Assembly: GCA_947372355.1 (NCBI GenBank)
Contig: CANBTI010000022.1
Span: 1 to 34,760 of the forward strand
Direction: 5' to 3'
DNA length: 34,760 nt
Source: Bdellovibrionales bacterium
GTDB taxonomy: Bacteria; Bdellovibrionota; UBA1018; CAIMNF01
In this document: positions 6,530 through 31,630 of the stretch, piece after piece
How positions within the stretch are numbered: the stretch's first letter is position 1
Layout of the letters: each line of letters opens with the position of its first letter
Notes under the pieces: model-generated
Told to the model about the DNA's origin: nothing
The model's database searches: none
The model's input: the letters and a program-made list of their open reading frames with translations, nothing else
Position numbers and translations under genes: made by a program

Positions 6530-7888
6530 TTACTCTAGTTTAAAGAGAGCTAATTCAATGAGGATTTTTTTAAAATATCCTGCACTGTAATCATTTTGTC
6601 GAAGTGCTATGAAGTCTTCGATTTTAAATTGATCTTTGGTTTTCTCATAAAAACAGAGTAATTCATGAGCAATAATAAAAACGCATGAAAGTGGTGCAAT
6701 TCTCACGTGATTGAGTTTGTTCGGGAAGCCTGTGCCATCACATCTTTCGTGATGTTGGCTGATGATCACATCGACATCGGGAGGAATTCCTTTGAATTGT
6801 ACTACGAGTTCAGCTGATCTTTTGGTGTGACCAACAAAATCATCGTAATCTTTTTTAGATAACTCAGCGCTGGCGTTCACTAGATCTGATTCATTTTCGT
6901 ATTTGGCATGAATCGGATTATGAAGTGTGGAATCGTGAAGTAAGGAAGCGAGTGCCATTTTATAAGCCGTACTATCAGAATCCCAACCCATCATTTTTGC
7001 AATGTGATTGGCAAGGTAGGGGAGTCTGGAACTATGAATAGCTAAGTAGTTACCAGATGCTATATTTACGTTTTCTAAAAGTGCTCTTAAGTTAGGATCT
7101 GAAGAAATGGTTTTTAATGCCATGTCCACACCGATTTTAGTGATGGTTTCAAGCTCTTCAGAGAAGCCAAATCCTGCTGCCATATCATGAATAGCGGTAC
7201 TAATTTCATCACAAGTTGTAATGAGGTCTACTGGCGTGAAATTTGTATTTTGGAAATTTTGAAGATATTTGTCTAAGAGTATTTTGAACAATGATTTTCC
7301 ATTTTCACGATCGATGTAGAGATAGTTTATTTTTTTTGCATGAAAACGGGAGAGTTCTTCGGTTCCAAAAAATTCATTTTCGTGAAGTACTTTTAAGAAT
7401 TTGTTTTCAGAAAGTTTTGCATACAATGCATAATTCACAGTTCCCAATCTCGCTAACTGGCTAATCGCCACACGAATGTAGTCTTCACTTTCAATGGTTT
7501 CTTCCTTAGTTGTGAGGAATTTTTGAATGGCATCCTTAAGAGGATCATTAAATTGCGGTTTTTCAACGATTGCATCAGGAGAAGAAATTTTAAATTCCTG
7601 AACCGATTTAGGGTTTACCGCCGAGACGAGGATAAACTTGATGTTCGGATGAGCCTTCCGGACGTAGAGGAGTAAACCTCCTCCGGTCAATTTAGGCATA
7701 TTATAATCTGAAACCACGATCTGAAAATTTGAATCTTTTTCTAATATTGCTTTTGCTTTTTCGCCATCTTCAGCAATCACCACTTCTGCATTGAACTCAG
7801 ATTCAATAAAAAAGCTGATGATTTCCAGAAGTTCTGGTTCATCTTCAGCAACAAGAATTCGTGGTTTTGGGCCAGCGGTCGTACTCAT
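6530..7888 (-). CDS. Response regulator with HD-GYP-type phosphodiesterase domain
   Basis: The 452-residue two-component output protein has a complete N-terminal receiver domain (about 8-125): acidic pocket E15/D16/E17, phospho-acceptor Asp61 (SDYNMP), Ser89 and Lys110 (VEKP). A middle region (about 135-275) has no clear match. The C-terminal domain (about 280-450) is HD-GYP-like: HSSRLPYLA with His285, LLHD with His318-Asp319, His354 in GHTKRSAE, and HHERCDGTGFP at 379-389, the GYP motif in its GFP variant. HD-GYP domains degrade cyclic di-GMP to GMP. The metal-ligand histidines are kept, but the usual GKIGVP-type segment after HD is replaced (STLHNPIHAKY), so activity is probable rather than certain. 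No kinase gene is adjacent; the partner may be elsewhere. Confidence 0.87.
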   Translation of the reverse strand: MSTTAGPKPRILVAEDEPELLEIISFFIESEFNAEVVIAEDGEKAKAILEKDSNFQIVVSDYNMPKLTGGGLLLYVRKAHPNIKFILVSAVNPKSVQEFKISSPDAIVEKPQFNDPLKDAIQKFLTTKEETIESEDYIRVAISQLARLGTVNYALYAKLSENKFLKVLHENEFFGTEELSRFHAKKINYLYIDRENGKSLFKILLDKYLQNFQNTNFTPVDLITTCDEISTAIHDMAAGFGFSEELETITKIGVDMALKTISSDPNLRALLENVNIASGNYLAIHSSRLPYLANHIAKMMGWDSDSTAYKMALASLLHDSTLHNPIHAKYENESDLVNASAELSKKDYDDFVGHTKRSAELVVQFKGIPPDVDVIISQHHERCDGTGFPNKLNHVRIAPLSCVFIIAHELLCFYEKTKDQFKIEDFIALRQNDYSAGYFKKILIELALFKLE

Positions 7889-30231: not shown

Positions 30232-30253
30232 AAGTGGAGAGATCCTTTCGTTG

Positions 30254-30283
30254 TTGCCTTAGTCTTAATTATATCGGTAAAAT
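30254..30283 (+). promoter_or_regulatory. Divergent promoter region fadB/mgtC-like; plus-strand promoter probably leaderless
   Basis: Plus strand: TTGCCT (30254-30259), an 18-nt spacer, TAAAAT (30278-30283), then ATG at 30291 with no Shine-Dalgarno. Minus strand: TATAAT at 30268-30273 for fadB. The two promoters interleave, so polymerase on one should hinder the other. Confidence 0.55.
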
Positions 30284-30290
30284 ATTAAAT

Positions 30291-30968
30291 ATGGACATGC
30301 AAATTCTCGATACCCTCAAACTTCTTTGGCCCAAGCTGTTAGTTGCACTTTTATGCGGTGGATTGATCGGTTTTGAGCGTGAATTGAAGAGTAAGGCTGC
30401 GGGGATTAAAACCAATATGTTGATTTGTGTGGGAGCAACTCTCTACACCGCAATCTCTATTGTGATGGCATCGTCTGAAACGGGAATGGGTCTCAAGGGT
30501 GATCCTGCTCGTATTGCTGCTCAAATTGTTTCGGGTATTGGTTTCTTGGGTGGGGGTGCGATTCTTCAATCAAAAGGAAATATTATCGGACTCACGACAG
30601 CGGCAACTATTTGGCTGGTGGCTGCGATTGGTGTTTGGATTGGGATGGGGTATCTCGCAGTTGCATTCTGCGTTACTGTTTTAATTGTCGTCGTATTGGT
30701 CACCGTGACCTTATTTGAAAATCATTTCTTGGGAAGAAAGCGTTACTTTAGAATTACGATTCATCTTCGTGAAAAATCAGATGAAATTACTCGCGCTGCT
30801 TTAGAAGAACTCATGAATGATCATGAATTAAATTTAGAAGAATACCGTGAGATCATGAGTGGTGAGCAACCTGAAATTCGCTTGGCTTATGTAGGTAGAA
30901 ATCATGATCATGCTCACATGTTGCTTGAGCTTTGGAAGATTCGCGGAATTTTGGATGTGAAGCAATAA
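30291..30968 (+). CDS. MgtC/SapB family inner-membrane protein
   Basis: The start at 30291 gives 225 residues and the usual family beginning. Conserved features are LCGGLIGFERELKSKAAGIKTN, ICVGATLYT, DPARIAAQIVSGIGFLGGGAIL (Asp71 to about 91) and GLTTAATIWLVAAIGVWIGMG, forming about five membrane helices. A cytoplasmic domain (about 150-225) at the C-terminus looks ACT-like. MgtC proteins modulate ATP synthase and survival at low Mg2+ or inside host cells in some pathogens; most bacterial members have no tested role. The longer open frame upstream (from 30234) was rejected because it runs through the promoter. It is followed by 380 nt without a gene. Confidence 0.92.
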   Translation: MDMQILDTLKLLWPKLLVALLCGGLIGFERELKSKAAGIKTNMLICVGATLYTAISIVMASSETGMGLKGDPARIAAQIVSGIGFLGGGAILQSKGNIIGLTTAATIWLVAAIGVWIGMGYLAVAFCVTVLIVVVLVTVTLFENHFLGRKRYFRITIHLREKSDEITRAALEELMNDHELNLEEYREIMSGEQPEIRLAYVGRNHDHAHMLLELWKIRGILDVKQ

Positions 30969-30975
30969 ATCAATA

Positions 30976-31052
30976 GGAGGGTGGCAAAGCCACCCGGACT
31001 ATGATCGCAAACTTGACGGCCGAGCAAAGCTCGGCAAACAAGTTGAGATCAT
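30976..31052 (+). repeat. Nested-palindrome repeat, copy A
   Basis: Order: GGAGG; hairpin GGGTGGC-AAA-GCCACCC (30979-30995); joint GGACT; then a compound hairpin of ATGATC/GATCAT (31001-31006 with 31047-31052), AACTTG/CAAGTT (31010-31015 with 31039-31044) and GCCGAGC-AAA-GCTCGGC (31019-31035), separated by small internal loops (ACG opposite AAA). It begins 8 nt after the mgtC-like stop. The GC-rich hairpins stand out from the AT-rich surroundings. It shares its joints and inner hairpin with copy B, but not its other stems. There is no T tract, so it is not a standard terminator. Confidence 0.85.
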
Positions 31053-31085
31053 CTATTGAGAAGAAGTTTAGAATATTAATGAATC

Positions 31086-31105
31086 GGTGCGAGCATGATT
31101 GTTTT
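31086..31105 (+). repeat. Degenerate fragment of the nested-palindrome repeat
   Basis: GGTGCGAGCATGATTG (31086-31101) differs by one base from GGTGCGAGCTTGATTG (31150-31165) in copy B. Its partner arm is missing here. It is followed by TTTTTAAAAA instead of the inner hairpin. This looks like a decayed or partial third copy. Confidence 0.6.
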
Positions 31106-31123
31106 TAAAAAGCTGATGTAGTC

Positions 31124-31238
31124 ACGGTCCGAGGCACGCAAGTGCCGAAGGTGCGAGCTTGATTGACGGCCGAGCAAAGCTCGGCAAACAATCAAGCTCG
31201 CATAGTCCGGCTGACTCCGTCAGCCTCCTTCGGACCGT
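31124..31238 (-). repeat. Nested-palindrome repeat, copy B (inverted relative to A), closed multi-arm structure
   Basis: Outer stem ACGGTCCGA/TCGGACCGT (31124-31132 with 31230-31238) encloses three arms. Arm 1 is GGCAC-GCAA-GTGCC (31133-31146). Arm 2 has a 14-bp stem (31152-31165 with 31189-31202) capped by GCCGAGC-AAA-GCTCGGC (31169-31185) across an ACG/AAA internal loop. Arm 3 is GGCTGAC-TCC-GTCAGCC (31209-31225). Read on the minus strand it starts GGAGG-hairpin-CCGGACTATG, exactly as copy A does on the plus strand. It lies about 110 nt before the HU gene start, upstream of that gene's promoter. Confidence 0.85.
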
Positions 31239-31268
31239 CAACTTACACAACGGATTAAAAAAATAGTT

Positions 31269-31298
31269 TTGTATTCCTGCGAAAAAAGTTTCTATCTT
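31269..31298 (+). promoter_or_regulatory. Promoter of the HU/IHF-like gene
   Basis: TTGTAT (31269-31274), an 18-nt spacer and TATCTT (31293-31298), giving a leader of about 45 nt with AGGAG at 31337-31341, 7 nt before the ATG. The rest of the 380-nt gene-free stretch (30969-31348) holds the nested-palindrome repeats. Confidence 0.5.
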
Positions 31299-31348
31299 AT
31301 TGAATTCCTTGCAAATACTCCTTAATCTTAAAGGATAGGAGATCCATT

Positions 31349-31630
31349 ATGACCAAAGCAGATTTGATTAACATCGTCGCGCAAAAGGTAAATTTGCAAA
31401 ACCGCCAAGCTGAAACGGTGGTGAACTTAGTATTTGATATGATGTCGGATACTTTGAAAAAAGATGATCGCATTGAAATTCGCGGGTTTGGATCATTTGT
31501 GAATCGCGTTTACGGAGCTTACGAAGGACGTAATCCAAAAACGGGTGAGCTAGTGAAGGTAGATCCAAAACGTGTCCCATTTTTTAAGGTTGGAAAAGAA
31601 CTGAAAGAAATGGTGGACCGTAAAAAATGA
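31349..31630 (+). CDS. HU/IHF-family DNA-binding protein
   Basis: This 93-residue nucleoid protein has the full family pattern: helical dimerisation part (1-42), IEIRGFGSF (46-50 core), the DNA-minor-groove arm with GRNPKTGE at 60-67 (Pro63 is the intercalating proline), and PFFKVGKELKE at 77-87. The last motif and the arm are closer to IHF subunits than to classical HU, but I do not assign alpha or beta. It binds and bends DNA as a dimer. A good AGGAG Shine-Dalgarno is present. Its TGA overlaps the ATG of the outer-membrane barrel gene by 4 nt, so it is the first gene of an operon of surface genes, which is unusual for a nucleoid protein. Confidence 0.93.
   Translation: MTKADLINIVAQKVNLQNRQAETVVNLVFDMMSDTLKKDDRIEIRGFGSFVNRVYGAYEGRNPKTGELVKVDPKRVPFFKVGKELKEMVDRKK

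Follow-up and report, generated by a model that had tools for sequence, protein, structure and literature searches.

The intergenic region between an MgtC-family gene and the gene for an HU-type DNA-binding protein, in a stretch of 34,760 nt from a Bdellovibrionales bacterium (hereafter the window, meaning the whole stretch that was analysed), carries two opposed nested palindromes, copies A and B, and raises the question of whether these are members of a mobile palindromic repeat family of the REP/BIME kind or of a structured RNA family. Both structures, as described in an initial annotation made from the letters alone, were found in the sequence, A on the plus strand and B on the minus strand (Table 1). 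The start that had been given for A (30976) needed correction, as the structured unit begins at 30970, and the structure itself stood. In the folds the long stem of A also contained an asymmetric GCA/GA internal loop, and the outer stem of B had two alternatives, CCGAAGG/CCTTCGG in the DNA fold of 31136–31238 and ACGGTCCGA/TCGGACCGT in the RNA fold of 31120–31240. Over six folds, RNA and DNA, the energies of A and B were 7.6 to 11.2 SD below those of shuffled sequences, and none of the 200 shuffles made for each fold was as stable. A script that searched for compound hairpins found A and B as the only sites in the window (three matches, B being hit in two registers), whereas 20 shuffles of the window gave four matches altogether.

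Table 1. Positions of the repeat copies, their parts and the neighbouring genes in the window.
Feature	Position	Strand	Description
Upstream gene, MgtC family (PF02308)	30234–30968	+	10 nt between its stop codon and P2 of copy A
Copy A	30970–31059	+	Three-way junction; strand from the 5′ box, model R2 scoring higher on the other strand
Copy A, P1	30970–30976/31053–31059		TCAATAG/CTATTGA; encloses P2 and the compound hairpin; then GA
Copy A, P2	30979–30985/30989–30995		GGGTGGC-AAA-GCCACCC; then GGACT
Copy A, P3	31001–31052		Long stem, with inner hairpin P4 (31019–31035) within
Inner cassette of A	31013–31041	+	Exact 29-nt direct repeat of 31163–31191, opposite frame
Half element between A and B	31086–31104	−	3′ arm of P3 of B and next bases; partial duplicate
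Copy B including outer stem	31124–31238	−	
Copy B, outer stem	31124–31132/31230–31238		
Copy B, P5	31133–31146	−	GGCAC-TTGC-GTGCC; extra hairpin, missing from the initial annotation
Copy B, P3/P4	31152–31202	−	14-bp stem, 3 × 3 loop, GCCGAGC hairpin
Inner cassette of B	31163–31191	+	Genomic direction as in A
Copy B, joint	31201–31208	−	GGACTATG
Copy B, P2	31209–31225	−	GGCTGAC-GGA-GTCAGCC
Downstream gene, HU-type DNA-binding protein (PF00216)	31349–31630	+	

The inner cassettes of A and B form an exact direct repeat of 29 nt (TTGACGGCCGAGCAAAGCTCGGCAAACAA), the long exact match noticed between copies, around which the two frameworks are inverted. The ACG/AAA internal loop that had been reported as common to both is shared on the plus strand only: followed in the direction of each element, A has ACG/AAA there, whereas B, like copy C80 (see below), has TTT/CGT. 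This suggests that in some copies the core has been turned relative to the ends of the unit, a change that recombination between the arms of a palindrome could bring about. The behaviour of R2, a model of the family described below, agrees with a turned core, since in A, C23a and C11 it favoured the strand opposite to that of the 5′ box; for the same reason the direction of those three copies is uncertain. The half element lying between A and B was recognised from a direct repeat, D2 (31086–31101), and an inverted repeat, I2 (31088–31104).

Searches of the host genome brought the family to 13 copies (A, B, C77, C3, C23a, C23b, C4a, C37, C80, C119, C11, C4b and C20), which occupy 11 loci and lie on 10 contigs. 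This number is a lower bound, as the assembly is a draft of 125 contigs that is 93% complete and each search had a limited reach. BLAST yielded C77 and a faint lead to C23; a further lead, C15, had no palindrome by eye. The pattern GGAGGN13CCGGACTATG, with up to three mismatches, gave eight host sites against 19 control sites. A, B and C77 matched it exactly and C3, which follows groEL, with one mismatch, and the four sites with three mismatches were taken as chance given the number of control sites. With the inner-hairpin pattern GCYGAGCNNNGCTCRGC (up to one mismatch) there were nine forward sites in the host, all exact, and none in the reversed control, compared with 36 forward sites (one exact) and 31 control sites in 13 other genomes together. 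Six copies went into the model R2, which matched the host genome 23 times at E ≤ 0.1, counting both strands, and recovered 11 of the 13 copies at E ≤ 1.3e-4, six of these being its own training rows. Beyond its training rows it matched A, C23a, C77, C11, C4b and, weakly, C20 (E 0.0415), and it was the source of C11, C4b and, again weakly, C20 as new copies. C3 was missed by R2 and came from the pattern together with another model, R1. A pattern for the 3′ box (up to three mismatches) gave eight host sites (control, one), five of which were known copies; the other three (C1, C67 and C75) each had three mismatches, and R2 found nothing in C67 and only E 0.47 in C75. The initial annotation had staked its reading on further copies, in this genome or in relatives, whose stems keep pairing. 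Further copies do exist in the genome and their pairing is kept, so that on this half of the test the reading survived.

Read along the element, the copies share a plan consisting of an end hairpin (P2), a joint, the 5′ arm of P3, an internal loop, the hairpin P4, the 3′ arm of P3 and, in some copies, P5, with a full unit measuring 73–134 nt (box edges were set by us). The sequence of P2 is variable, the joint has the consensus GGAYTATGCGA (exact in B, C77 and C80, with variants elsewhere) and P4 is mostly GCYGAGC-nnn-GCTCRGC. A 3′ box with P5 was present in 9 of the 13 copies (B, C77, C37, C80, C4a, C4b, C23b, C119 and C20), and by eye 4 of the 13 had AGGAGG at the head, the others having AAARGC or other bases. 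Among 12 folds, six (A, B, C23a, C4a, C80 and C11) had a 3 × 3 internal loop and five had one that was uneven or partly closed; the loop was fully closed only in the fold of C23b, where the core is a single unbroken 25-bp hairpin. In A, B, C77 and C3 a P1 stem of 6–9 bp enclosed P2 and P3; that of C3 was taken from the centroid and has a close rival fold, and that of B is one of the two alternatives given above. Opposed pairs occurred at 2 of the 11 loci (A/B and C23a/C23b), with a single unit at the other nine; in BIMEs, REPs are clustered and alternate in orientation. Half elements were duplicated at C77, at C37 and between A and B, the left side of C4a resembled an inverted 3′ box, C20 was an internally deleted copy without P3 and P4, and in C77 an insert preceded the 3′ box. 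By eye, this insert has TCGCA on both sides. The duplications at C77 (L054, near 7293–7500) and C37 (L107, near 1491–1560) are direct and adjoin the full unit.

Stems that differ between copies were nevertheless found to be paired within them. For the arms of P3 (13 nt chosen by us, in 12 copies, as C20 has no P3 and was dropped) the match was 91% within a copy and 48% between copies, a within-copy value reached by none of 100,000 shuffles; without A and C3, for which other anchors were used, the values were 94% and 58%. In P2 of the four copies with GGAGG (A, B, C77 and C3) all 28 of 28 cells were paired, with four of the seven pairs changed on both sides, compared with 7–46% pairing in slid controls. 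Four of five measures for P2 were reached by 2 of 500 shuffles, and the fifth, the number of further pair types, was not unusual (141 of 500). Compensated changes were also seen in P4 of C11 (GCTGTGC/GCACAGC) and C4b (GCTGAGT/ACTCAGC), and P4 of C119 had one C·A mismatch. Among 265 pairs in 12 copies there were 12 G·U pairs, one enclosed 1 × 1 C·A mismatch and the 2 × 2 loop of C119, all of them small numbers; several of the G·U pairs belong to the internal loop, and copies differ in which strand is transcribed. That P2, P3 and P4 change and yet pair means that structure is kept across the copies, either by selection or by hairpin-templated correction, and the persistence of the internal loop argues against correction alone. 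The compensatory changes pointed out by the initial annotation are present, but selection is not the sole reading of them, since hairpin-templated correction of quasi-palindromes also produces paired changes.

The units mostly lay at the ends of genes. Open frames of at least 85 codons were taken as genes, unit edges were set at the end hairpins or boxes, and B and C23b were treated as the second units of their opposed pairs. On this basis 10 of the 11 loci had a unit end separated by 0–13 nt from a stop codon (A, 10 nt; C77, 4; C3, 13; C23a, 11; C4a, 7; C11, 4; C37, 3 and, at its opposite end, 19; C80, 0 and 2; C119, 0 and 7; C4b, 0). At the remaining locus, C20, the nearest stop codon was 85 nt away and the unit adjoined the 5′ end of a gene. 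At C80 and C119 the neighbouring genes converge and the unit occupies nearly the whole gap between their stop codons; divergent genes surrounded a unit at none of the 11 loci. C4b, judged by its 5′ box, and less surely C11, are reversed with respect to the gene whose stop codon they adjoin, and from C4b it follows that the stop-codon rule concerns the end of the unit and not its strand. The initial annotation had proposed to check for an intergenic preference; the copies are indeed extragenic, and they occur in both orientations and occasionally in opposed pairs, as REP/BIME repeats do. Five T residues followed the end hairpin in one direction in 3 of the 13 copies (C23b, C4b and C80), and no site resembling an intrinsic terminator (G+C-rich hairpin and U tract) was present in 30900–31400. 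Downstream of groEL, the interval from the stop codon to the terminator, a hairpin with a T run, was 119 nt in the host, with the unit inside it, as against 12–64 nt in ten congeners (ten measured of eleven matched; in G008 the terminator was also close by eye). A longer interval is what an insertion would leave, the exact empty site being unreadable at the divergence concerned, as the closest relative is 83% identical in groEL DNA.

The relatives, which the initial annotation had also proposed to search, gave no copies with R1 or R2 in the genomes covered. R2, with 12 candidates scored per genome and stricter filters, matched none of 367 other genomes in the phylum at E ≤ 0.001, and a weak match in G035 (E 0.00725, from 128 candidates scored in 35 relatives) was folded and by eye had none of the box motifs. 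Weak R1 matches in 10 of 57 other genomes were all rejected on reading; the best, in G004 (E 0.0068), had AGGAGG and a paired P2-like hairpin, but is situated in a 316-codon open frame and is followed by bases that do not fit. With BLAST the region had short matches (E 5.3e-5 to 0.098) to 50 of 289 other genomes. Among the few that were followed up, that in G135 (26 nt, 96%) was inside an open frame, and those in G173 and G122, inspected briefly, cover bases outside the palindromes. A match in G052 was inside a 649-aa frame that resembles YgiQ. The 3′-box pattern, at up to three mismatches, had matches in all 13 genomes searched, and the one-mismatch match in G002 was inside an open frame. Exact matches to GGAGGNTN9ANCCGGACTATG were found in eight genomic and four viral stretches; as P2 was by eye unpaired in the right register in all of them, they were put down to chance. 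Two further stretches, from another viral pattern, were inside open frames and were likewise rejected. There was no phage match for 30900–31340, no plasmid match for copy B and no Rfam match in the window at gathering scores; a relaxed Rfam search of 30900–31350 gave three matches far below those scores (best E 0.015). A hidden small gene, with AGGAGG, a bypassed hairpin and ATG, was also rejected, as by eye the frame stops after three codons in B and after six in C77 and C3 has no ATG at that place (in A it continues for about 35 codons). On present sequences the family is apparently restricted to one species, and its absence from the searched relatives suggests that it spread within the host lineage.

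HUH/Y1 transposases, for which the initial annotation had suggested a search, are present in the genome, but none was found beside the repeats. PF01797 matched at five places in the host genome, four of them above cut-off. One of the proteins (on C65, a 256-aa frame) passed the model for REP-associated tyrosine transposases (NF047646) with 80.6 bits (cut-off 80), and three distant paralogues of 190 aa scored far below cut-off with this and with the IS200 model. No unit was detected with R2 (up to E 10) at the loci of the five matches, nor by eye in the flanks of four Y1 genes, one downstream flank being only 55 nt long at a contig end. The C65 gene (L048:1241–2008) has by eye an inverted repeat, TAGGTGTCCGACAACTTTTG, on both sides; this is unlike the unit and resembles the arrangement of the TIR-flanked RAYTs in PMC3733652. 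The genes for the other three proteins (L049:1499–2074 on C69, L050:1534–2106 on C81 and L051:1440–2009 on C103) lie at unlinked sites, two of the products being 88% identical to the first; by eye about 50 bp directly upstream are conserved among them, and the visible downstream flanks differ. Of 11 congeners, 8 also have the 190-aa protein, and R2 detected no unit in them. With RAYT and Y1 genes in the genome and none found beside a unit, a Y1 enzyme would be available to the units, but the link is circumstantial. As the assembly is an incomplete draft, a REPtron could be missing from it.

REPINs are described in PMC3116915 as having REP end hairpins in inverted order and paired spacers with compensatory changes, and as folding into a ‘clover’. 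The unit is like them in its terminal hairpins, its co-varying paired middle and its clover or long-hairpin fold, as well as in being extragenic, non-autonomous, sometimes in opposed pairs and partially duplicated; it is unlike them in that REPINs number hundreds and only 13 copies were found here, the ends are weakly alike, its middle holds a conserved inner hairpin (P4), and no cognate RAYT was found beside a cluster. REPINs are further marked by an over-represented 16-mer, whereas the long exact match noticed here is the 29-nt one of A and B. The likeness of the ends was measured with a profile of nine reverse-complemented 3′ boxes, which matched 2 of the 11 5′ ends tested (C23b, E 0.0017; C23a, E 0.0026; C4a and C37 were outside the test). 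REPs are reported to be situated mainly downstream of coding regions (PMC3733652), their known super-families being marked by GTAG or CGTC heads, and RAYTs are flanked by their own REPs, some carrying unrelated terminal repeats instead (TIRtrons) (PMC2817692, PMC3733652 and PMC8266576). With these systems the unit shares a short-loop palindrome often at stop codons, paired changes and a RAYT in the genome, and differs in having no GTAG/GTGG or CGTC head, in being a nested palindrome of about 70–135 nt in place of the 20–40 bp of a REP, and in that the RAYT here, unlike that of a REPtron, has an unrelated inverted repeat at its flanks. Because of its head, its copy number and the failure to find a linked transposase, the unit was not filed as a member of the REPINs. 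Bacterial MITEs are short, non-autonomous and intergenic with inverted ends, as is the unit, and are expected to come with a target-site duplication and an autonomous parent having the same ends; no such duplication was recognised by eye around the units and no parent was present among the matches obtained. Literature searches confined to an open-access library, some of them assuming a Bdellovibrio-like host, listed nothing that was recognised as describing the unit.

We consider it probable (about 60%) that A and B are copies of a low-copy, non-autonomous REPIN/BIME-like element belonging to a small, apparently species-restricted family. Of the two possibilities raised by the initial annotation this favours the mobile repeat, the structured RNA family having gained no positive support here. 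A full unit, a long nested palindrome flanked on one side or on both by a terminal hairpin, can fold into separate hairpins (a clover) or, if its ends pair, into a single longer hairpin. A transposase supplied in trans, probably a Y1 (HUH) enzyme, would recognise the folded single strand and carry it into gene-free space beside stop codons, where the unit would then persist as a stem-loop in the 3′ UTR. That the unit moves, that it does so as a single strand, which enzyme acts on it and whether transcripts are affected are all matters of inference, and the divergence of all 13 copies, with no near-identical pair, counts against recent movement. The same divergence, together with the unbroken hairpin of C23b and the inner cassettes of A and B that keep one direction in opposed frames, as palindrome-arm recombination could produce, would fit if the copies were inert remains of an ancient dispersed repeat, with no present mobility or function and with stems paired only through hairpin-templated replication or gene conversion. 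We think this improbable, as pure correction would not preserve the joints or an internal loop that just one of the 12 folds closed completely, and as absence from the searched relatives suggests spread within the lineage.

The placement of the units could also be explained if they were structured RNA elements of the 3′ UTR, transcribed with the upstream gene, protecting mRNA 3′ ends or shaping termination and kept for that role, with mobility of the DNA secondary or absent. The closeness to stop codons at 10 of the 11 loci, the very stable RNA folds, the filling of the convergent gaps at C80 and C119 and the T runs in three copies all fit such a role. It is made fairly unlikely by C4b and, less surely, C11, which lie reversed to the gene they abut, by the lack of terminator-like sites around A and B and the separate terminator kept downstream of groEL, by G·U pairs that favour no single transcribed strand (in small numbers) and by the empty Rfam result at gathering scores. 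In outline the units, hairpins of a single strand that lie by stop codons and combine fixed joints with paired stems of variable sequence, also resemble integron attC sites, and they could be recombination sites of that or another site-specific kind that act as folded single strands. attC sites carry the boxes RYYYAAC and GTTRRRY; this pair was present in none of the 13 copies on either strand, the copies are dispersed and form no cassette array, and we regard the chance of such an origin as very slight. Returning to the REPIN/BIME-like element, an unlikely but more far-reaching form of it would be a new class of head-less (no GTAG) miniature elements that fold as single strands and insert at or directly against stop codons (gap 0 at C4b, C80 and C119), so making up nearly the whole 3′ region of a gene and coupling mobility to 3′-end function, and for which the enzyme may be a trans-acting Y1 protein not flanked by the repeat.

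If the preferred reading is correct, REPIN-like elements would extend to a genome that has neither a linked dedicated transposase nor the standard head motif, and the set of 13 copies would allow the structural rules to be read directly, with joints kept and stems free to change as long as they pair. It would then become testable whether trans-acting Y1 enzymes move repeats that do not flank them, and whether the units act as the 3′ ends where genes converge.
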